Shown piece after piece: positions 9,537 to 52,064 of a stretch of 64,000 bases of DNA. The stretch comes from Desulfotomaculum nigrificans DSM 574 (GTDB lineage Bacteria; Bacillota; Desulfotomaculia; Desulfotomaculales; Desulfotomaculaceae), in the NCBI RefSeq assembly GCF_000189755.2, contig NZ_KI912183.1:2842255-2906254 (forward strand). The letters are read 5' to 3'. Below the pieces are notes generated by a model, which saw only the letters and a program-made list of their open reading frames with translations, searched no databases and had not been told where the DNA came from. The position numbers and the translations under genes are program-made. The first letter of the stretch is position 1; each line of letters opens with the position of its first letter.

Positions 9537-9556
9537 AATTACTATACCCTCCTTCT

Positions 9557-9694
9557 GGCCTTCGAGGTTAGTTGTCGGGTTCGGGTTGGAAGGTTACCCT
9601 ACCGCACCTGTTTTAAACACCTCCAAAACAAGGTTTGCGGATTCACCCCAGAAAAATTAGTCCCCCGTACTCCGGTTGACGGAGATTCGGCCTA
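9557..9694 (-). ncRNA. c-di-AMP riboswitch (ydaO-yuaA leader)
   Basis: Read on the minus strand, the leader contains the conserved ydaO blocks in order: GGCCGAATC, GGGGTGAATCCGC, GGTAGGGT with ACCTTCC, ACCCGAACCCGACA and CTAACCTCG, closed by a GGCC/GGCC pairing. These match the class that binds cyclic di-AMP and usually turns genes off. It ends about 20 bases before the start of the LysM-SleB gene. Confidence 0.9.
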
Positions 9695-9830
9695 TTTAAT
9701 AGTAATTTAGGAATAATTGTACAGGCTTTTCATAATTCCGTCCAGCCACAATTTATGGAAATTGGCAGACATAGTATATGTTGCTTGGGATATACTAAAG
9801 TTTGTAAATGGTACAAAGGGGGATTTCAGG

Positions 9831-11104: not shown

Positions 11105-11300
11105 AAATGTAGAATAGGTAACCCGTGCAGAGATGCACGGCTGAACCGGCAGGAGTCAGTAGAGGCCATAGTATCTGCCAGGAGACGTCCAAGTAGGGAA
11201 GGTCCGAACATGATTGTCTGTTTCACCACATAATTTGTAGGTAGACGAAGAAATATGTAGAAATATACATCTAATCCATATTTCTAATATTCACCTCAGG
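11105..11300 (+). mobile_element. Degenerate mobile-element leader (group II intron-like)
   Basis: This stretch holds a hairpin CCGTGC-AGAGAT-GCACGG followed by AGGAGTCAGTAGAGGCCAT and GGAAGGTCCGAAC. That wording resembles the leader region before the reverse-transcriptase frame of bacterial group II introns, judged from memory. No reverse transcriptase follows; a transposase fragment does. It is best read as a scar downstream of the tRNA gene, a common insertion neighbourhood. Confidence 0.35.
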
Positions 11301-37797: not shown

Positions 37798-37980
37798 AAT
37801 ACATCTCCTTGCGTTAAAAGGACCGAAGAAAGTATAGGAAAATATTTTAATTGTCTCCAGAAGAAGGTCAAATTATAACTGGGACTATGTTCCTATTTAA
37901 CCTTAAAATCGAAAAAAGTTGCCTCTTTTGGCAGGAAAATGCAGAACTATAGCGAATTCAGTAATAGACTAAAATAAAAA

Positions 37981-38091
37981 ACGCCTAATTTTCCCAATGG
38001 GGGGAAGCGGGGGAACCATGTTATTGGGGTGAACTACCTGTGGTAGCGGGCTAACTTTCAGTCCGAACCCGTCAGCTAACTCCGCAGGCGT
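37981..38091 (+). ncRNA. c-di-AMP riboswitch (ydaO-yuaA leader)
   Basis: Closed by ACGCCT (37981-37986) with AGGCGT (38086-38091). Conserved blocks in order: GGGGGAACCA, TTGGGGTGAAC, GGTAGCGGGCTAAC, CAGTCCGAACCCGTCAGCTAACTC is represented at 38060-38083. It precedes the LysM-NlpC/P60 gene by 18 bases, so the aptamer and ribosome site are very close. Confidence 0.92.
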
Positions 38092-38109
38092 AGAAAGTGG
38101 GGAAATGCT

Positions 38110-40891: not shown

Positions 40892-40981
40892 AAAAAACAG
40901 CAAACCCGTACCACTTTTTATGGTGATACGGGTTTCTTTTTAGGATTTGATTAACTGTGGCTACCATTTTGGGTCAGCCTC
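40892..40981. repeat. Truncated copy of a MITE-like intergenic repeat
   Basis: About 90 bases matching 48718-48805: hairpin AACCCGTACCAC...TGGTGATACGGGTT with T-tracts on both sides, then ACTGTGGCTACC and the end TTTTGGGTCAGCCT. The right end abuts the stop codon of cbiL. Only the right-hand inverted repeat is present. The hairpin should serve as terminator for both GerM and cbiL transcripts. Confidence 0.8.
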
Positions 40982-41700
40982 TATTCCACTTGCTTACTTA
41001 AACTTTTCTTCGCCAGGATGGTAGACAGGTAAACCGGTTTCAGATCGGCTGACCTATCAATTTGATAGTGGATGGTCTCATCCGGGTGGCCGCATTTGCT
41101 GATCATTACTGCTTGCTCTGACAGGTGGTGGGACTTAAGCTGATCCACAACCTCATTGATATTCCGGTAAACCTTCATCAACACTACGCTGTCGGAATAA
41201 TCCAGGGCCCGGGCCAGTTTATCCTGGCCGCAGGTGGCGGGGATGATGGAAACAATGTCGTTGCCCTCGGCCAGGGGATAGCCCAACCTGCTGCCGGCAG
41301 CGCAAAAGGAGGTAATCCCCGGTATGGTTTGGATATCTACCCGGTGTGGGGCCAGCAAGCGGAAAATATAGATATATGTGCTGTAGAGCATGGGGTCGCC
41401 CAGGGTTAAGAAGGCCACCTGCTTGCCCTGTTCCAGCAGGTTAAGGATGGTGTTTTTGCCATCTAACCAGGCTTCATTTAACTGGTTTTCATCATAAACC
41501 ATGGGAAAAACCAGCTCCAGAATTTCCGTGTTTTGTCGTAGGTGGGGCATGGCAATATTTAAAGCCGTGCTCTTTTCATTTTTCTGGGTGCGGGGAGCAA
41601 TGACCACATCTATCTTTTTTAAGATATTAACGGCCTTTAAAGTGATCAGTTCCGGATCACCGGGGCCAACCCCGATACCATATAATGTACCTTTCATCAT
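40981..41700 (-). CDS. cbiL: Cobalt-precorrin-2 C20-methyltransferase
   Basis: A 239-residue SAM-dependent tetrapyrrole methylase. It shows the family start GTLYGIGVGPGDPELITLKAV (residues 4-24), TLGDPMLYSTY near 98-108 and IPGITSFCAAGSRLGYPL near 126-143, which is CbiL/CobI-like. It methylates cobalt-precorrin-2 at C20. It is the only early methylase missing from the main cbi operon, so it serves that pathway from here. ATG 41700 has GGGAGG upstream. It lies downstream of cbiK, 64 bases apart, and is probably cotranscribed with it. Confidence 0.92.
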   Translation of the reverse strand: MMKGTLYGIGVGPGDPELITLKAVNILKKIDVVIAPRTQKNEKSTALNIAMPHLRQNTEILELVFPMVYDENQLNEAWLDGKNTILNLLEQGKQVAFLTLGDPMLYSTYIYIFRLLAPHRVDIQTIPGITSFCAAGSRLGYPLAEGNDIVSIIPATCGQDKLARALDYSDSVVLMKVYRNINEVVDQLKSHHLSEQAVMISKCGHPDETIHYQIDRSADLKPVYLSTILAKKSLSKQVE

Positions 41701-44111: not shown

Positions 44112-44188
44112 TGAACCCCCTTGAAAATACCTCCTCATATTTAACAGTAAATTATTTAACTATGCAACTACTTAATCCATTTTTAACC

Positions 44189-44230
44189 ACCCCCTTTTCT
44201 AAAAGATAATTTAAGGGGGTTTTTGGTTTT
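44189..44230 (+). terminator. Hairpin with T-tract in the ECF sigma leader
   Basis: CCCCCTT pairs with AAGGGGG around an AT-rich loop, followed by TTTTTGG. It lies in the divergent intergenic region that is conserved at 50.3 kb, so it may be an attenuator of the sigma gene. Confidence 0.6.
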
Positions 44231-44340
44231 AAATAATTATATCTTTATTACGACATTATTTGCACTTTATTAATAAAAGGAATCTAGGCATAATGTAAAG
44301 AATTTTTTATATAAAACTATGAATTTCACGGGAGGCTGCT

Positions 44341-44907
44341 ATGTCAACTTTCAAAAATCTGTTTACTAGCAAAAAGAAGGATTTAAGTAAACTTATTTTT
44401 GAACTGTATTACAAGTCAGCCTTCCAATGTGCCTATCATTATTGTGGTGACCCTATCATATCTGAAGAAGCAGCGCAGGAAGCAATATTTAAGGCTATTC
44501 AGAATTTAGATCAATTAAAAGATGCCAATAAAATTGAACCATGGATTAAGAGAATAGCTATTAATAATGTCAATGCCATAATAAATAAAAGGAAAAATAT
44601 TGTAAGCTTAGAGTCGGTGGGACCTATTCTAGATTCCTTGGAGAATTGCCCCGAATACGTTGTGCAAAACGCTGCCACTTCGGAAGCGGTCAATGAAGCG
44701 GTAAATTCCCTTGATCCTTTAATGAGGCAAACTATCTACCTTTACTATTATAGGGAAATGAGAGTGAAGGATATTTCAATCTTTCTTGATAAGCCGGAAG
44801 GAACTGTAAAGACAATTCTACATAGGGGTAGAATGGCTATAAGGAATAGGCTAGTAATGAAAGGTTATATAATCAAGGGGTCGGAAGGTGGGCTGAAGGT
44901 TGAGTGA
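44341..44907 (+). CDS. ECF-type RNA polymerase sigma factor
   Basis: A 188-residue sigma-70-family protein of the extracytoplasmic-function group. Region 2 (about 16-85) reads LIFELYYKSAFQCAYHYCGD and EEAAQEAIFKAIQNLDQL, with WIKRIAINNVNAII; region 4 (about 115-175) reads LDPLMRQTIYLYYYREMRVKDISIFLDKPEGTVKTILHRGR. ATG 44341 has GGGAGG upstream. The next gene, a DUF4367 membrane protein, overlaps it by 8 bases and is presumably its anti-sigma. Two remnants of the same module lie downstream. Confidence 0.92.
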   Translation: MSTFKNLFTSKKKDLSKLIFELYYKSAFQCAYHYCGDPIISEEAAQEAIFKAIQNLDQLKDANKIEPWIKRIAINNVNAIINKRKNIVSLESVGPILDSLENCPEYVVQNAATSEAVNEAVNSLDPLMRQTIYLYYYREMRVKDISIFLDKPEGTVKTILHRGRMAIRNRLVMKGYIIKGSEGGLKVE

Positions 44908-45634
44908 CAATAATAAATATACCTTAGTTGATGAACTTATCAAAGAAACCCTACGGGAAAAGACTCAAAAAGAAACAAATATTGATATAGAAGCTGCCTG
45001 GGAGAGGTTTAATAAGAGGTACAACATAAAGCACCAAAAATCCCCTAGAACAATTGCTATTGCTTCTTCCATTATTTTGGTACTAATAAGTGCCATCGTT
45101 TTTCTGCCCAATGAAGGAAGTGCCTTGAACTTAAAGATATTGGAGAATATTAAGTCCTTCATTTCAGGAAAGGTACAGGTAGCACATACCTCTTTTGGCC
45201 CTAATAATAAAAAGAAAGACACTGTAACTAAGCTTCAACCTGAAGTTGCCAGTGTCTTGAAAAATGTGCCTTTTGAAATTTTGATTCCAATGGATATGAT
45301 GGATAGCTATTCAATTCAAAAAGCCAGAGTTAATAAGGTTGGAGATTCAACCCAAATAACTTTGTTTATTAAGAATCAAACCACAGATAAAATCCGTATT
45401 ACCGAGGTTAATGTTATAGGTGGTTTTGACCAGGGTAATTCTTATGATACTGAAGATGCAACTATGAAAAGGGCAAACATTAGGGGCCAGGAAGCTACTT
45501 TGTTTTCTTATAAAAACGGCATCAATAGATTAAGTTGGGTGGACAGGGATATATTTATAACCATATCCGGTCCGGTAAATGAAGATGAATTAATGTCATT
45601 AGCCAACACTTTAAGGAGAGCTAATTTAAAGTAA
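44900..45634 (+). CDS. Probable anti-sigma factor with DUF4367 domain
   Basis: A 244-residue single-pass membrane protein. The cytoplasmic N-terminus (1-50) is charged, a membrane helix covers about 54-72 (TIAIASSIILVLISAIVF), and the outer part (about 110-244) is a DUF4367-type domain with VPFEILIPMDMM and EATLFSYKNGINRLSWVDRDIFITISG. This arrangement, and the 8-base overlap with the ECF sigma gene, mark it as the cognate anti-sigma. TTG 44900 is used. No zinc-binding HxxxCxxC motif is seen, so it is not of the ZAS type. Confidence 0.82.
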   Translation: MSDNNKYTLVDELIKETLREKTQKETNIDIEAAWERFNKRYNIKHQKSPRTIAIASSIILVLISAIVFLPNEGSALNLKILENIKSFISGKVQVAHTSFGPNNKKKDTVTKLQPEVASVLKNVPFEILIPMDMMDSYSIQKARVNKVGDSTQITLFIKNQTTDKIRITEVNVIGGFDQGNSYDTEDATMKRANIRGQEATLFSYKNGINRLSWVDRDIFITISGPVNEDELMSLANTLRRANLK

Positions 45635-45722: not shown

Positions 45723-46023
45723 TTATTTTTTTAATGCATATTCTAATGCAGTTAAACCTTCCTTACTAATTATAGATTTATCGGCTTCATAATTCAGTAG
45801 CATTTCCACTATTTTTGAATGACCATTAGCAGAAGCATAAATTAGTGCCGTTTTATTATTATTATCTTTTGCATTAGGGTTGCTTCCTTTATTTAACAAA
45901 GTTTTAACTACCTCTATGGCCATTTTTTGAAGCATAGATGAGTGCAGTTCTTTTGTTGTTATCCTGTTCATCTATTTGAGCGCCTCTTTTTAATAATTCT
46001 ATTACGATATCATTATGGCCCAT
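45723..46023 (-). pseudogene. Ankyrin-repeat protein remnant with frameshift
   Basis: Two frames each hold ankyrin repeats. From 46023 the first reads MGHNDIVIELLKRGAQIDEQDNN and RTALIYASKNGH; then a frameshift near 45925-45930 moves to a second frame with IEVVKTLLNKGSNPNAKDNNNKTALIYASANGHSKIVEMLLNYEAD to the stop at 45723. Together they form about three repeats of the same protein. No ribosome site or signal peptide precedes the fragment, so the 5' end is also lost. Confidence 0.7.
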
Positions 46024-46554: not shown

Positions 46555-46690
46555 TATTACATTACGACATTATTTGCACTGGTTTAATAAAAGAAATCTA
46601 GGGAGAAAAGAACACTTCAGCCCCGCCCAAGCCCGAAGCCATCAGTGTCTTAAAAGATATACCCTATGAAGTATTATTTATTTTCTTATA
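46555..46690 (+). pseudogene. Decayed ECF sigma/anti-sigma module (copy 2)
   Basis: 46561-46607 repeats the intergenic block before the intact sigma gene (ACGACATTATTTGCACT and AATCTAGG, cf. 44251-44296). It then passes directly to a fragment (46632-46679) reading PEAISVLKDIPYEVLF, which corresponds to PEVASVLKNVPFEILI of the intact anti-sigma. The whole sigma gene and the first third of the anti-sigma gene are missing. Confidence 0.7.
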
Positions 46691-46695
46691 AAACG

Positions 46696-47133
46696 CTAAT
46701 TTACAGTAAAAGATCCGGTGTAAGAAGTATTTGTTTCAATTAAATTGCCCATATCCACACGGTGGAAGCAGCGTACCCTATATGTAGTACCCCTGATTCC
46801 GGTATAACTCCCAGTTACATTACAGTAATCATTATTATATTCGGTGCCAGTCCAGCTTTTTACCACTGACCATCCAGCTGAAGTCCATTTTTCTAAGTAG
46901 ACGGTTGTAGTGATTTTGCTAACAGTATAGTAGGTTGCGGTGGTTCCTGATACACCAATACTTGTTCCATTTAGCGTATAATAGCAAGAAGCATCATAAA
47001 GGTGCTGGTAGGATTGGGGTGTAATAACGCCAACATTTTTTGGTCCATCCTGTTCCGCGAATACAGGTTGTCCAACAGCGAAGAACATAAACCCTACCAA
47101 AAGAATTGCCAGACATTTAAACTTTTTGATCAT
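46696..47133 (-). CDS. Small secreted beta-sandwich-like protein
   Basis: A 145-residue exported protein: signal peptide 1-26 (ends QPVFAE), then a Tyr/Thr/Ser-rich mature part (SIGVSGTTATYYTVSKITTT, VYLEKWTSAGWSVVKSWTG, GTTYRVRCFHRV) in the style of small Firmicute secreted beta-sandwich proteins (DUF6147-like, judged by eye). ATG 47133 is used with AGGGAGG upstream; the longer frame has no signal-like start. Two Cys in the mature part could form a disulfide. Function unknown. Confidence 0.7.
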   Translation of the reverse strand: MIKKFKCLAILLVGFMFFAVGQPVFAEQDGPKNVGVITPQSYQHLYDASCYYTLNGTSIGVSGTTATYYTVSKITTTVYLEKWTSAGWSVVKSWTGTEYNNDYCNVTGSYTGIRGTTYRVRCFHRVDMGNLIETNTSYTGSFTVN

Positions 47134-47282
47134 AAAGAAAACCTCCCTAAATATATTTTCATTAATTAGATAAGTTACCACCCAAAATGGTTTCAACAAA
47201 TTTTAAATACTAAATATTTTTTAGACTCAGTTGAAAAAGCCACCCAGTAATTGGTAAAATATTGCTATAAACTATACATTTA

Positions 47283-47448
47283 ATCCGGTAGGTGCCCCGT
47301 GGGGAGAATAGGGAATCAGGTGCAAATCCTGAGCGGACCCGCCACTGTAAGCGGTTAGTCTAACACCATATTTATGCCACTGACCGTCACGGTTGGGAAG
47401 GCCGGTGTTGGGCCATGACCCGTGAGCCAGGAGACCTGCCTGCCGGAT
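47283..47448 (+). ncRNA. Cobalamin riboswitch
   Basis: All classical elements are present in order: GGTGCCCC, GGGAATCAGGTGCAAATCC, TGAGCGGACCCGCCACTGTAA, and the B12 box GAGCCAGGAGACCTGCC, closed by ATCCGG/CCGGAT. It controls the cobT-cbi operon in response to adenosylcobalamin. Confidence 0.97.
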
Positions 47449-47474
47449 CATAGAACTGAGGATGATGGAAAAAT

Positions 47475-47534: not shown

Positions 47535-48590
47535 ATGGAATTATTAAAACAAACCATAGCCCAAATTGACCCGCCAGACCAACAAGCCATTAAGTCAGCC
47601 CGGGAGAGATTGGACAGTTTAACCAAACCGCCCGGCAGCCTGGGGCGGTTGGAGGAAATAGCTTACCGACTGGCCGGCATTCAGGGCCAGGCTATACCGG
47701 AGTTACCCCGGGAAAAGGTGATGATGGTGCTGGCCGGCGACCACGGGGTGGTGGCAGAGGGAGTCAGTGCCTTTCCCCAGGAGGTAACCCCGCAAATGGT
47801 GGCTAATTTTTTGCGCGGCGGGGCGGCTATTAATGTATTGTCCCGGCAGGCCGGGGCCAGGGTGGTGGTGGCTGACATCGGAATTGCCGGACCACCTTTG
47901 CCGTGGCCGGGACTAATTGACTGCCGGGTTAAACCAGGTACTGATAATTTTGTGCTGGGCCCCGCCATGAGCCGCACTGAGGCAGTGCAAGCCATTGAGG
48001 CTGGCATCAAATTAGTTTACCAGCAGGTGCAGGGACAACCGGCCCTGGTGGGTACCGGGGAGATGGGTATTGGCAACACCACACCCAGCAGTGCCATCTT
48101 AGCAGTATTTGGCGGTCTGTCGCCCCGGGAAGTCACCGGCCGGGGGACCGGTATTGATGACGCCAGGTTGGTCCACAAGGCCGCAGTTATTGCCCGGGCC
48201 ATAGAGGTGAACCGGCCCGATCCCAACGATGGGTTAGATGTGCTGGCCAAGGTAGGGGGCCTGGAAATTGCCGGGCTGGCCGGGGTAATACTGGGTTGTG
48301 CGGCCCGTCGCCTGCCGGTGGTGATTGACGGCTTTATTTCCGGGGCGGCGGCCCTGGTGGCCCGCTCCCTGGCCCCTTTAAGCCGGGAGTACATGTTTGC
48401 CTCGCACCTTTCCAATGAACCGGGTCACCGCCTAATGTTGGAAATGCTGGACTTAAAGCCTATGCTGCAGCTGGATATGAGGCTGGGCGAAGGAACCGGC
48501 GCCGCCTTGGCCTTCCCCCTACTGGAAGCGGCTATTCGGGTGATCAACGAGATGGCCACCTTTGCTGAGGCAGGGGTCAGTGAAGCATAG
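47535..48590 (+). CDS. cobT: Nicotinate-nucleotide-dimethylbenzimidazole phosphoribosyltransferase
   Basis: A 351-residue CobT (usual length 345-360) that makes alpha-ribazole phosphate, the lower-ligand precursor of cobalamin. Motifs: LTKPPGSLGRLEEIAYRL near the start, VVLAGDHGVVAEGVSAFPQEVT, GEMGIGNTTPSSAI, and the catalytic Glu in RLGEGTGAALAFPLL near 317. ATG 47535 has AGGAGGAAT upstream. It is the first gene behind the cobalamin riboswitch; the rest of the operon resumes at 50.7 kb after an accessory insertion. Confidence 0.95.
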   Translation: MELLKQTIAQIDPPDQQAIKSARERLDSLTKPPGSLGRLEEIAYRLAGIQGQAIPELPREKVMMVLAGDHGVVAEGVSAFPQEVTPQMVANFLRGGAAINVLSRQAGARVVVADIGIAGPPLPWPGLIDCRVKPGTDNFVLGPAMSRTEAVQAIEAGIKLVYQQVQGQPALVGTGEMGIGNTTPSSAILAVFGGLSPREVTGRGTGIDDARLVHKAAVIARAIEVNRPDPNDGLDVLAKVGGLEIAGLAGVILGCAARRLPVVIDGFISGAAALVARSLAPLSREYMFASHLSNEPGHRLMLEMLDLKPMLQLDMRLGEGTGAALAFPLLEAAIRVINEMATFAEAGVSEA

Positions 48591-48598
48591 AACTTACC

Positions 48599-48627
48599 TT
48601 ATATTTCCGGCGGCCATACTGTATAAT
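48599..48627 (+). promoter_or_regulatory. Promoter-like block, duplicate of the cbiA promoter region
   Basis: TTATAT-17-TATAAT, followed by CCCTTCTGCTAAGGGCAAG. The block 48598-48655 matches 50549-50606 closely. It lies directly after cobT. Confidence 0.6.
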
Positions 48628-48654
48628 TTTCTTATACCCTTCTGCTAAGGGCAA

Positions 48655-48805
48655 GGGGCTGACTCAAAAATCATTTTCCAAAAAACAAGTCCCCACTTTT
48701 AGTGTTAAAACCCCAATAAATACAGCAAACCCGTACCACTTTTATGGTGATACGGGTTACTTTTTGGGATTTGGTTCACTGTGGCTACCCTTTTGAGTCA
48801 GCCTC
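48655..48805. mobile_element. MITE-like element (151 bp)
   Basis: Terminal inverted repeats GGCTGACTCAAAA (48657-48669) and TTTTGAGTCAGCC (48791-48803) are exact; the interior has no gene and holds the AACCCGTACCAC hairpin. A truncated second copy is at 40892-40981. The ends resemble those of IS1182- or ISL3-type elements, so it is a non-autonomous derivative. It splits the decayed duplicate of the cbiA leader. Confidence 0.75.
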
Positions 48806-48827
48806 TTTATGAACGACTTAATACCTT

Positions 48828-48901
48828 GGTGGATCTATGCATATACAAGACTGGTTTTAGTCGGCACCAACAGTTGTGTGGGTAAAACACTTTTGCTTTA
48901 A
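48828..48901 (+). pseudogene. Decayed 5' fragment of cbiA
   Basis: TGGTGGATCTATGCATATAC aligns with the ribosome site and start of the intact cbiA at 50.67 kb. The following bases, with one frameshift, read RLVLVGTNSCVGKTLLL, matching RLVLAGTHSGVGKTTVTL. It reaches a stop after about 20 codons. With 48598-48655 it forms a duplicate of the cbiA promoter plus 5' end, interrupted by the MITE. Confidence 0.7.
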
Positions 48902-48980
48902 AATTGCTTTTTTTCAGCCGGAAAAGTTTCCTTAATAAAATGTTTTCAATATTACGTCTGATCCGCTTTTAAAATAACGA

Positions 48981-49391
48981 CTAATTACTTTTGTTAAAGC
49001 ATGTAACAAGGGTGTGCCCTAATATAATCGGTGGAAGTAGTTCAATAGTAGGATTTATTACACTTAAGTCTATCAAATTTATTCTTATCCCTAAGAAAGG
49101 CAGCTCACTAAGTAAAATAAATATAAAAGAAGGAACCGCAAGAAAAATAAATTTTGGCCGATTTAAACTCCATTTGCCATTTCTTTTTCTATTTTCCATT
49201 AAATAATCAAAACCTAATAAGATGCCAAATAAAAAAAGTAGAAACAATTTAATAAAATAGCTTATTGGTATATAATTGAATGTAGTAACAATTTGAACTT
49301 TTAAATAACCTAATACATAGTGTGTAACCAGAAAAAGTAAAAAGATGGATGAACTTATAAGAAAATACTTTTTTATATTATTTGTTATCAG
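48981..49391 (-). CDS. Small membrane protein with probable CTG start
   Basis: A 136-residue protein with four hydrophobic segments (about 9-28, 44-63, 80-95, 105-128). The frame is continuous from CTG 49391, which lies 7 bases after AAGGAGGGG; no ATG, GTG or TTG fits that ribosome site. A shorter version from TTG 49247 (88 residues) would lose the first helices. No family recognised. The AT-rich composition sets it apart from the cbi genes around it. Confidence 0.55.
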   Translation of the reverse strand: MITNNIKKYFLISSSIFLLFLVTHYVLGYLKVQIVTTFNYIPISYFIKLFLLFLFGILLGFDYLMENRKRNGKWSLNRPKFIFLAVPSFIFILLSELPFLGIRINLIDLSVINPTIELLPPIILGHTLVTCFNKSN

Positions 49392-49421
49392 AAATACCCC
49401 TCCTTATATAATATTAAAAAT

Positions 49422-49462
49422 AATCACAAATACATTTTATGTAAAGATGTATCTGTGATTTT
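49422..49462 (-). terminator. Terminator of the secreted-protein gene at 49.5-50.2 kb
   Basis: AATCACAAATACAT pairs with ATGTATCTGTGATT (49422-49435, 49447-49460); on the minus strand it is followed by ATTTTTAAT. Confidence 0.75.
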
Positions 49463-49464
49463 AA

Positions 49465-50229
49465 TTATGATGCAGACATTACGTTTTCCATTTTTAATAC
49501 CCAGGATGAGCCATTCCCGGTATGGGTAATTTTACAAGAGGAATTTAAACCTATCGAATACTTTGTGGTTAAGCTGATTGGAGCCCAAGAGGAATCAACT
49601 GTTCTAGCAAATGTAAAAGAACTAGTAGTATATGTTGGAGAAGTATTCTGAACGAAGAAACGGTCTAAGTTAAATCCACTTTGCCCATACCAATACTTGC
49701 GATCAGAAACCGTTAACCTACTATCACCAACAGTCCATCCACCATCTACATATACCATGTCAACATATTCGATTCCATTAATATAGTTGGTTAGCCAATA
49801 AAAAGTACCATAAGCTTTAACTCCTCCAGAACCATCCGAGACCGATTTGTATTTGGAATCATCATAGTATGGTACAGCCATAATAGTAGTTGCATAATAA
49901 GAGGTTATGGAACCGTCTTCGCCTTCAGTTTGCTTATATAATTGGGTGGTTTCATAAACATCAACATCTTTTTTATTTCCGTTTTTTTCATCAATCATCG
50001 CTGCCTTATATTTAAAAAGCTTATCTTTGTGTTTAGAATCCAGATCAGTAATTCCTTTTTGGGCCCGGTCATATAAAGTGTCTACATCCTTAATGATTTG
50101 CTTCTCAAATCTAACCTTTTCGGTCATTTTAGCTTCCGCCAAATTTAAATTAGTAATGGGGCTTACAAATAAACAAAACACTGTAAAAACTAACAACAAA
50201 CGACTTAAAATATTCTTAAACTTTTTCAT
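49465..50229 (-). CDS. Secreted protein of unknown function
   Basis: A 254-residue exported protein: signal peptide 1-33 (ends LNLAEA), a charged helical segment (about 35-85), and a Tyr-rich beta domain with IMAVPYYDDSKYKSVSDGSGG, YGTFYWLTNYINGIEYVDMVYVDGG and SSWVLKMENVMS. The style recalls surface-stress or bacteriocin-like secreted proteins. No family recognised. ATG 50229 has GGGAGG upstream. It is divergent from the sigma remnant at 50427, in the same layout as 43617/44341. Confidence 0.7.
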   Translation of the reverse strand: MKKFKNILSRLLLVFTVFCLFVSPITNLNLAEAKMTEKVRFEKQIIKDVDTLYDRAQKGITDLDSKHKDKLFKYKAAMIDEKNGNKKDVDVYETTQLYKQTEGEDGSITSYYATTIMAVPYYDDSKYKSVSDGSGGVKAYGTFYWLTNYINGIEYVDMVYVDGGWTVGDSRLTVSDRKYWYGQSGFNLDRFFVQNTSPTYTTSSFTFARTVDSSWAPISLTTKYSIGLNSSCKITHTGNGSSWVLKMENVMSAS

Positions 50230-50279
50230 AATATCCTCCCTTATTAGTATTATTTTTTATTTAAGTTCATTTCATTAAA

Positions 50280-50505
50280 ATAATTAATCCATATTTAATC
50301 ACCCCCCTTTTCTAGAAGATAATTAAAGATGGTCTTTGGTTTTAAAAAAATATCTTTTTATTTCGACATTATTTTGCAGTTTTAATATTAAGGAAGGCAG
50401 ATAAAACATGAGCCCGAAGGACAGCTATGTCTATATTCAAAGATTTGTTTACAAATAAAAAGAAAGTTAATAAGGACTTAAGCAAACTTATTTTTAAACT
50501 ATGCT
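50280..50505 (+). pseudogene. Decayed ECF sigma module (copy 3)
   Basis: 50280-50399 repeats the intergenic block 44171-44296 (TAATTAATCCAT, CACCCCCCTTTTCTA, CGACATTATTT). From ATG 50427 a frame reads MSIFKDLFTNKKK and DLSKLIFKLCY, matching MSTFKNLFTSKKKDLSKLIFELYY of the intact sigma factor. It is cut after about 27 codons, where sequence of the cbiA leader begins. Confidence 0.8.
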
Positions 50506-50547
50506 ATGTGTTGCCCAGGCGGGCGTTAGTCAGGCCTAGATATTCCC

Positions 50548-50632
50548 TTGTATTTCCAGCACCCATACAGTATAATTTCTTTAGACCCTTCTGCTAAGGG
50601 CAAGCCCTAACCCGGTTAACAGGGGTTAGGGC
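50548..50632 (+). promoter_or_regulatory. Promoter and leader hairpin of the cbiA operon
   Basis: TTGTAT-17-TATAAT (50548-50576) gives an internal promoter. It is followed by CCCTTCTGCTAAGGG and by an 11-base-pair hairpin AGCCCTAACCC/GGGTTAGGGCT (about 50604-50632). No B12 box is present, so this start appears independent of the riboswitch upstream of cobT. Confidence 0.6.
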
Positions 50633-50669
50633 TTATTGTATGATAAATAAGTAACTTTTTGGAGGTTTT

Positions 50670-52064
50670 ATGCATATTCCCAGACTGGTGTTAGCCGGGA
50701 CCCACAGCGGGGTGGGCAAAACCACAGTTACGTTAGGGTTGCTGGCTGCCCTGAACCGCCGGGGACTGAGGGTGCAGCCTTTTAAAGTGGGTCCCGATTA
50801 TATCGACCCCGGCCTGCACCGGGCGGCGGCGCACTGTGTCTCCCATAATTTAGATAGTTGGATGGGTTCCCCGGCCCAGGTACGGCAGCTTTTTATCCGC
50901 CGGGCAGCGGGCTCTGACCTGGCCGTGGTGGAAGGCGTCATGGGGCTTTATGACGGGGTCAGGGGCCGGGGAGAGGCTGGCAGTACCGCGCAGGTGGCTA
51001 AAATTATTCAAGCGCCGGTGGTGCTGATCTTTCCGGCCAAAGGTCTGGCCCGCAGCGCTATAGCCTTAATCAGCGGCTACCGCAGTTTTGACCCCCGGGT
51101 GCAGATTGGCGGCGTCATTGCCAACGGGGTAGGCAGTGACCGGCACCGGGAATTTCTCCGGGAAGTGGTGGAAGGCGAACTGAGCCTGCCCCTGCTGGGC
51201 GCCTTGAGTCACCGCCAGGAAATTGTCATGCCCCAGCGTCACCTGGGCTTATTGCCGGCGGTGGAAAATAAAGAGTTAAACCGTACATTGGAGCAACTGG
51301 CCAGGGTGGCTGAGGAGCAATTGGATATTGATAAGATAATAGATCTGGCCCAAAAGGCACCTTTGTTCGAGGATGGCCCCGGGTTACCTTGTACCCGCCC
51401 GGTCCCCCGGGTACGGCTGGCGGTGGCCAGGGATGAGGCCTTTAATTTTTATTATGATGACAGTTTAGATTATCTAACTGAATCAGGGGCGGCAATTGTG
51501 CCCTTCAGTCCCCTGCGGGATGCCCAGTTACCACCGGATATTGACGGCATCTATATTGGCGGCGGCTTTCCGGAGCAATTTCTGCCGGAGCTGGCGGCTA
51601 ACCAATTGATTAAGCAGCAAATTATTGCCGCCCACCAGAGCGGCATGCCCATTTACGCTGAGTGTGGTGGCTTGATGTACCTGTGCCAGGGCATTTGTTC
51701 CTTATCCGGCGAGGAATTTCCCGGTGTGGGTCTGGTGCCGGCCAGGGTGAAAATGGAGCGGAAATTAGCCGCCCTGGGGTATGTGCGGGCCCGGTTGGTT
51801 AAACCTACCCTGTTAGGGGAACCGGGCCTGGAACTGCGGGGCCATGAATTTCACTGGTCCACCATCAGTGCCCTGTCCCCGGCAGATGCGGCCTATCAAC
51901 TCAGCGGTGGCCGGGGGACGGAGGAACGGCCCGAGGGATATGCTAAGGCCAACCTGCTGGCTTCCTATGTCCACCTGCACTTTCGTTATAACCCAACAGC
52001 TGCTGGCAATTTCTTAGCTCAATGTACCCGTTATGGTCAGGTCAGGAGAACTAAACATGGATAA
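50670..52064 (+). CDS. cbiA: Cobyrinic acid a,c-diamide synthase
   Basis: A 464-residue glutamine amidotransferase that amidates the a and c side chains. The ATP-binding domain begins AGTHSGVGKTTVTLGLL (residues 9-25) with KVGPDYIDPGLH; the C-terminal class-I glutaminase domain has YAECGGLMYL (catalytic Cys about 331) and GHEFHWS. ATG 50670 has TGGAGG upstream. First gene of the uninterrupted cbi block; cbiD overlaps it by 8 bases. A decayed duplicate of its 5' end lies 1.8 kb upstream. Confidence 0.95.
   Translation: MHIPRLVLAGTHSGVGKTTVTLGLLAALNRRGLRVQPFKVGPDYIDPGLHRAAAHCVSHNLDSWMGSPAQVRQLFIRRAAGSDLAVVEGVMGLYDGVRGRGEAGSTAQVAKIIQAPVVLIFPAKGLARSAIALISGYRSFDPRVQIGGVIANGVGSDRHREFLREVVEGELSLPLLGALSHRQEIVMPQRHLGLLPAVENKELNRTLEQLARVAEEQLDIDKIIDLAQKAPLFEDGPGLPCTRPVPRVRLAVARDEAFNFYYDDSLDYLTESGAAIVPFSPLRDAQLPPDIDGIYIGGGFPEQFLPELAANQLIKQQIIAAHQSGMPIYAECGGLMYLCQGICSLSGEEFPGVGLVPARVKMERKLAALGYVRARLVKPTLLGEPGLELRGHEFHWSTISALSPADAAYQLSGGRGTEERPEGYAKANLLASYVHLHFRYNPTAAGNFLAQCTRYGQVRRTKHG

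Follow-up and report, generated by a model that had tools for sequence, protein, structure and literature searches.

How did cobT, preceded by a cobalamin riboswitch, and the cbiA operon come to stand apart with two versions of the DNA that leads from one gene into the other? Bacterial gene order changes fast, and duplication followed by loss is a proposed route of such change, although the leftovers of both copies are rarely readable. They are readable in the stretch of the Desulfotomaculum nigrificans DSM 574 genome that we analysed (64,000 nucleotides, hereafter the window). The original prediction for this locus, made from the sequence alone, was that an insertion accompanied by a duplication broke the cobT-cbiA linkage and left an internal promoter outside the riboswitch.

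Duplication of the cobT end, promoter and cbiA start

The end of cobT and the promoter that follows it occur twice in the window (Table 1). Regions 48562-48655 and 50511-50604 align without gaps over 94 nt at 80% identity, and in a search of the whole genome (3.05 Mb) copy 1 was the sole other strong match to copy 2 (E 1.2e-17). The local alignment score of the pair is 93, compared with 30 at best for random stretches of the window. The predicted duplication of the promoter block is therefore borne out, whereas its start had been set too late, as the match begins inside cobT at 48562. Both copies include the coding end of cobT in a matching frame, reading ATFAEAGVSEA* in copy 1 and VAQAGVSQA* in copy 2; the cobT C-terminus in congeners is typically ...FAEAGVSQG. 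Copy 2 starts within cobT, as a truncated second cobT would, and its VAQAGVSQA* comes after a fragment of a sigma factor gene.

A second match covers the start of cbiA, where 48826-48908 aligns with 50659-50743 at a score of 56, against no more than 27 for about 1000 other stretches (E 1.2e-6 in a search of the window). One-base gaps in this alignment destroy the reading frame of copy 1, in agreement with the frameshifted cbiA start originally described. Across the three coding remnants of the locus, differences fall 12:5:24 at codon positions 1:2:3, and this slight shortage of second-position changes hints that both copies may have been coding for some time (41 differences, p 0.04 under the fairer null). 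A 29-nt match between 48902-48930 and 8544-8516 was taken as chance, its second site lying inside unrelated coding sequence.

Table 1 Features of the cobT-cbiA locus, with positions in the window
Feature	Position	Strand	Evidence
Copy A, sigma-module start (divergent intergenic region and first codons of intact sigma gene)	44166..44405	+	BLASTN
Intact ECF-type sigma gene, upstream of riboswitch and cobT	44341-44907	+	sigma-70 r2/r4 Pfam matches
DUF4367 protein, putative anti-sigma partner	44900..45634	+	Pfam DUF4367 5e-16
Copy B remnant (sigma-upstream fragment and DUF4367 fragment)	46561..46676	+	BLASTN, shuffles
Secreted protein gene convergent to sigma module, as in congeners	46696..47199	-	homology
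Cobalamin riboswitch ahead of cobT	47273..47457	+	Rfam RF00174, 132.8 bits
cobT, intact	47535..48590	+	TIGR03160 9e-142
Copy 1 of block (cobT tail and promoter)	48562..48655	+	alignment
Hairpin insert, 13-bp inverted ends; inner stem common to genus-wide terminator-like repeat	48657..48803	.	
Copy 1 of cbiA start, frameshifted (ribosome-binding site and ~25 codons)	48826..48908	+	alignment
Small membrane protein gene	48981..49391	-	no family match; marginal matches only in relatives
Secreted protein gene, divergent from sigma remnant	49465..50229	-	signal peptide by eye; homologues
Copy C (truncated sigma start: upstream region and ~27 codons)	50278..50505	+	BLASTN, tree
Sigma remnant, coding part	50427-~50505		
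Copy 2 of block (cobT tail remnant and working-type promoter)	50511..50604	+	alignment
12-bp leader hairpin of cbiA transcript	50602..50634	+	
cbiA, intact, first gene of cbiA-cbiD... operon	50670..52064	+	NF002204 1.5e-156

Repeated copies of the sigma module

The sigma fragment next to copy 2 is part of a second repeat. Region 50278-50500 matches 44166-44405, where the intact sigma gene that precedes cobT begins (BLASTN 70%, E 8e-24 genome-wide), and the two are direct and collinear, with no comparable match at other sites of the genome. Their identity (78.6% of 201 aligned sites) is near the 80% of the 94-nt block, and copy C abuts copy 2 of the block within ~6 nt. Two separate pairs, 44166-44405/50278-50500 and 48562-48908/50511-50743, thus match in the same direction and the same order, and the survivors differ by unit, with sigma and cobT intact on the left and cbiA intact on the right. 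Two independent events, one duplicating the sigma start and the other the cobT-cbiA block, would have had to place their products side by side by coincidence. Sigma starts are also broken or partly duplicated elsewhere (G003, G020), but given the shared order, direction and divergence and the abutting ends we regard such a coincidence as extremely improbable.

Copies A and C were sisters in a maximum-likelihood tree that also took in sigma starts from five other genomes, and a grouping of the left copy with its G003 orthologue was rejected (delta logL 16.4, AU p 0.006). The branch of the remnant is three times longer than that of the left copy (0.21 vs 0.07), as for a copy that may be decaying.

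A third piece, copy B, consists of 42 nt (46561-46602) at 90% to 44247-44288 (E 1e-9 genome-wide) and, starting 2 nt further on, a DUF4367 fragment (46605-46676) with a protein score of 61 (2000 shuffles reached 43 at most). It sits just before the convergent secreted protein gene at 46696..47199, the product of which is 58-66% identical to proteins encoded beside DUF4367 in G005, G006 and G007; a DUF4367 gene follows sigma in these three genomes and in G020. All three sigma-start pieces of the genome lie within 6.2 kb and in one direction. Because copy B lies between the other two sigma starts, duplication and deletion may have been repeated here. We see about an even chance that tandem duplication and deletion have recurred in this neighbourhood around the ECF sigma/DUF4367 module, leaving a readable small-scale fossil in which three sigma-start pieces (at 44.2, 46.6 and 50.3 kb), two tails of cobT and two heads of cbiA would record successive rounds.

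Elsewhere, broken or cut-off copies of the sigma gene were seen in G003 (L112 1340-1459), where the break adjoins an IS21-like transposase gene (named by eye), and in G020 (L113 2859-3008). The window also holds an ankyrin-repeat gene (45723-46011) with a partial tandem self-copy beside it.

Genes between the two blocks

The membrane gene, secreted gene and sigma remnant that had been described between the two blocks are all present. Homologues of the 254-aa secreted protein (49465-50229) were found in G004, as phrog_27470 and on small Bacillus and Clostridioides plasmids (26-30% identity). Neither the membrane gene nor the secreted gene (48981-50229) has a counterpart to the left of the intact sigma gene (score 60, shuffle maximum 66), the sequences left of the two sigma starts showed no similarity, and no remnant of the 254-aa secreted gene or of a lipoprotein gene rose above shuffles in the other unit. 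Tandem duplication therefore requires either one more loss on the left or one more gain on the right. In G004, genes of the secreted and lipoprotein families lie side by side on one strand, and the lipoprotein family also flanks the left sigma copy in the window; the G004 neighbourhood weakly suggests a loss of the membrane and secreted genes on the left, which would be plausible.

These genes also bear on the insertion with duplication that was originally proposed, in its explicit form a single crossover of a circle carrying the cobT tail, promoter and cbiA head together with the membrane, secreted and sigma pieces. Such an integration would likewise leave these direct repeats on both sides, and it could draw on the plasmid relatives of the secreted protein and on the missing left counterparts. 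However, an unrelated circle does not explain why the sigma end of its cargo is sister to, and collinear with, the local sigma gene, a further local copy of the sigma/DUF4367 module exists, and the 1.6 kb between the blocks showed no gene for integrase, replication or relaxase functions, so that we consider integration of a circle unlikely. Duplication does separate cobT from cbiA as predicted, but an insertion as the cause is not supported because the sigma remnant is a collinear copy of DNA upstream of cobT, which a tandem duplication followed by deletion would predict.

The cbiA promoter and riboswitch in the genus

In copy 2, the promoter consists of TTGTAT at 50548 (-35) and TATAAT at 50571 (-10) with a spacing of 17, and copy 1 has TTATAT at 48599 and TATAAT at 48622, so that the two -35 elements differ by one base. 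The promoter TTCCTTGTA(C)TT...TATAATTT directly precedes cbiA in all of the same-genus genomes (8/8), with sigma-70 type -35 and -10 elements conserved at the orthologous place in the congeners and copy 2 (TTGTNT, 17-18 nt, TATAAT). None of seven congeners examined has a cobalamin riboswitch upstream of cbiA; their cobalamin riboswitches precede cobT or lie divergently ahead of a cbiX-like neighbour.

Judged from these genomes, a cbiA operon that lacks a riboswitch is normal for the genus rather than a consequence of the rearrangement. The internal promoter outside the riboswitch thus exists as predicted but was not left by the event, which the promoter would predate since it is conserved in the relatives. 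This corrects the regulatory inference, as the cbiA operon would lie outside riboswitch control by default in the genus, and any B12 feedback on the corrin-ring pathway must therefore use other operons or another regulator. The promoter of copy 1 probably drives nothing, because it has lost a -35 base (TTATAT) and faces the hairpin insert and opposite-strand genes.

Gene order in the relatives further constrains the history of the locus. cobT is adjacent to cbiA in none of the eight congeners, and the two genes are ~2.8-21 kb apart in the seven that have both on one contig; in G008 cobT is on the strand opposite cbiA. An insertion that broke an ancestral cobT-cbiA operon of the genus is ruled out by this lack of adjacency, and it likewise means that relatives do not share the present arrangement without the duplicate; had they done so, it would have counted against the original prediction. 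Where read, a divergent lgt-like gene adjoins the cbiA promoter in congeners, and the window lacks the YibE/F-like gene and lgt found between cobT and cbiA in relatives (all named by eye).

In both copies here the cobT stop and the promoter are a few bases apart. This junction is older than the duplication, since both copies have it, and it is absent from all congeners examined, which have other DNA there. Its absence speaks against recombination with a diverged relative, in which a cobT tail-promoter-cbiA fragment would have entered through one-sided homology with the copies already ~20% apart on arrival. The richness in third positions of the differences in the cobT and cbiA pieces would suit such an origin, but the long branch in the sigma-start tree is confined to the sigma remnant, and we hold recombination of this kind to be quite unlikely.

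In G026, which belongs to another family, cbiA follows a leader that by eye resembles a riboswitch. Both cbiA and cobT of G007 (L079, L080) are split over frames with stops, reflecting either poor assembly (72% complete) or real decay. A second cbiA/cobB-like gene in the D. nigrificans genome, outside the window (G000:C1:2217656-2219059), has 43% identity and one in-frame TAA. The window also contains two c-di-AMP riboswitches (9542-9702 and 37972-38106) and a group II intron D1-D4 match (11119-11204).

Hairpin insert and leader hairpin

The promoter part of copy 1 is split from its cbiA head by a hairpin insert, which takes the place of the 12-bp hairpin in the intact leader. The insert has perfect 13-bp inverted ends (48657-48669 and 48791-48803) and folds into a single long hairpin. 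A 151-bp MITE had been predicted at this position; the insert is present there, whereas no target-site duplication was recognised (flanks GGGCAAG / TCTTTATG) and no second two-ended copy was present in the genome or in the congener copies inspected, where partial copies are one-sided or lack the ends. No parent transposon was found. Other copies in the genome and congeners have only 45-110 nt in common with the insert, centred on an inner stem that resembles a terminator (AACCCGTACCAC...GTGATACGGGTT). The shared part is a hairpin repeat of 50-90 nt, and several copies of this stem repeat stand directly after stop codons. The insert is thus a possible MITE, and the stem repeat could be an undescribed gene-end repeat. 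We counted ~25 matches to the stem repeat in six genomes, with loci at 48718-48806 and 40893-40982 of the window and in G003, G005, G006, G001 and G008 (L212-L220).

The 12-bp leader hairpin is strong, lies ~20 nt past the likely cbiA transcript start and is absent from the cbiA leaders of congeners. It is possibly an attenuator or mRNA stabiliser. Its derivation from a decayed copy of the insert was considered and dropped, the arms being too unlike.

Proposed tandem duplication and complementary gene loss

Based on these comparisons, we propose that the locus is probably the scar of an old serial head-to-tail duplication with complementary gene loss. In the genus state, cbiA would start its operon from its own sigma-70 promoter, with cobT nearby behind a cobalamin riboswitch, and in this lineage cobT would have become the immediate upstream neighbour of the cbiA promoter. 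A segment running from the sigma upstream region through the riboswitch, cobT and the promoter to at least the start of cbiA may then have been duplicated in tandem. The left unit would have kept sigma, the DUF4367 gene and cobT and lost cbiA except for its head, and the right unit would have kept the promoter and cbiA and lost ~4.1 kb, from about sigma codon 27 to the last nine cobT codons. A hairpin repeat would also have entered the left spacer.

We infer the 4.1-kb deletion, as the right unit lacks its middle and the genomes examined show no intermediate state of the rearrangement; a cobT scan of genome contigs returned no near relatives (best 61-62%), and so no closer intermediate. The outcome would be two separate transcription units, cobT with its riboswitch and the cbiA operon without one, set apart by genes on the opposite strand and a hairpin that resembles a terminator.

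Comparison with known systems

The hairpin insert resembles MITEs in being short and palindromic with terminal inverted repeats, and differs from them in its core, which matches the candidate gene-end hairpin repeat, and in the missing target duplication, parent transposon and second two-ended copy. The locus follows the known cobalamin riboswitch control of cob operons (RF00174) in having a riboswitch ahead of cobT, as in the congeners examined, but in the genus a separate promoter, with no riboswitch match, serves the cbiA operon.

If our reading is correct, the locus is a fossil of the duplication and reciprocal-loss route to new operon neighbourhoods, which left a riboswitch gene standing apart from a cob operon that lacks one. 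A published account that explains changes in operon surroundings through duplication and asymmetric loss is alike in mechanism, but concerns other genes and phyla and was inferred from gene order, whereas leftover sequence is the source here. Among published ideas, the SNAP model of bacterial gene-order change (Brandis and Hughes 2020, PMC7055797) comes closest; in it a duplication is stabilised by different gene losses in each copy and the new gene order can no longer collapse. As far as its sequence anatomy indicates, the locus fits the duplication and inactivation steps of SNAP on a small scale, with a segmental duplication followed by the loss of different genes from each copy. It differs from SNAP in that the unit spans ~5 kb, where the model deals with tens to hundreds of genes, and in that remnants of both copies are still readable.
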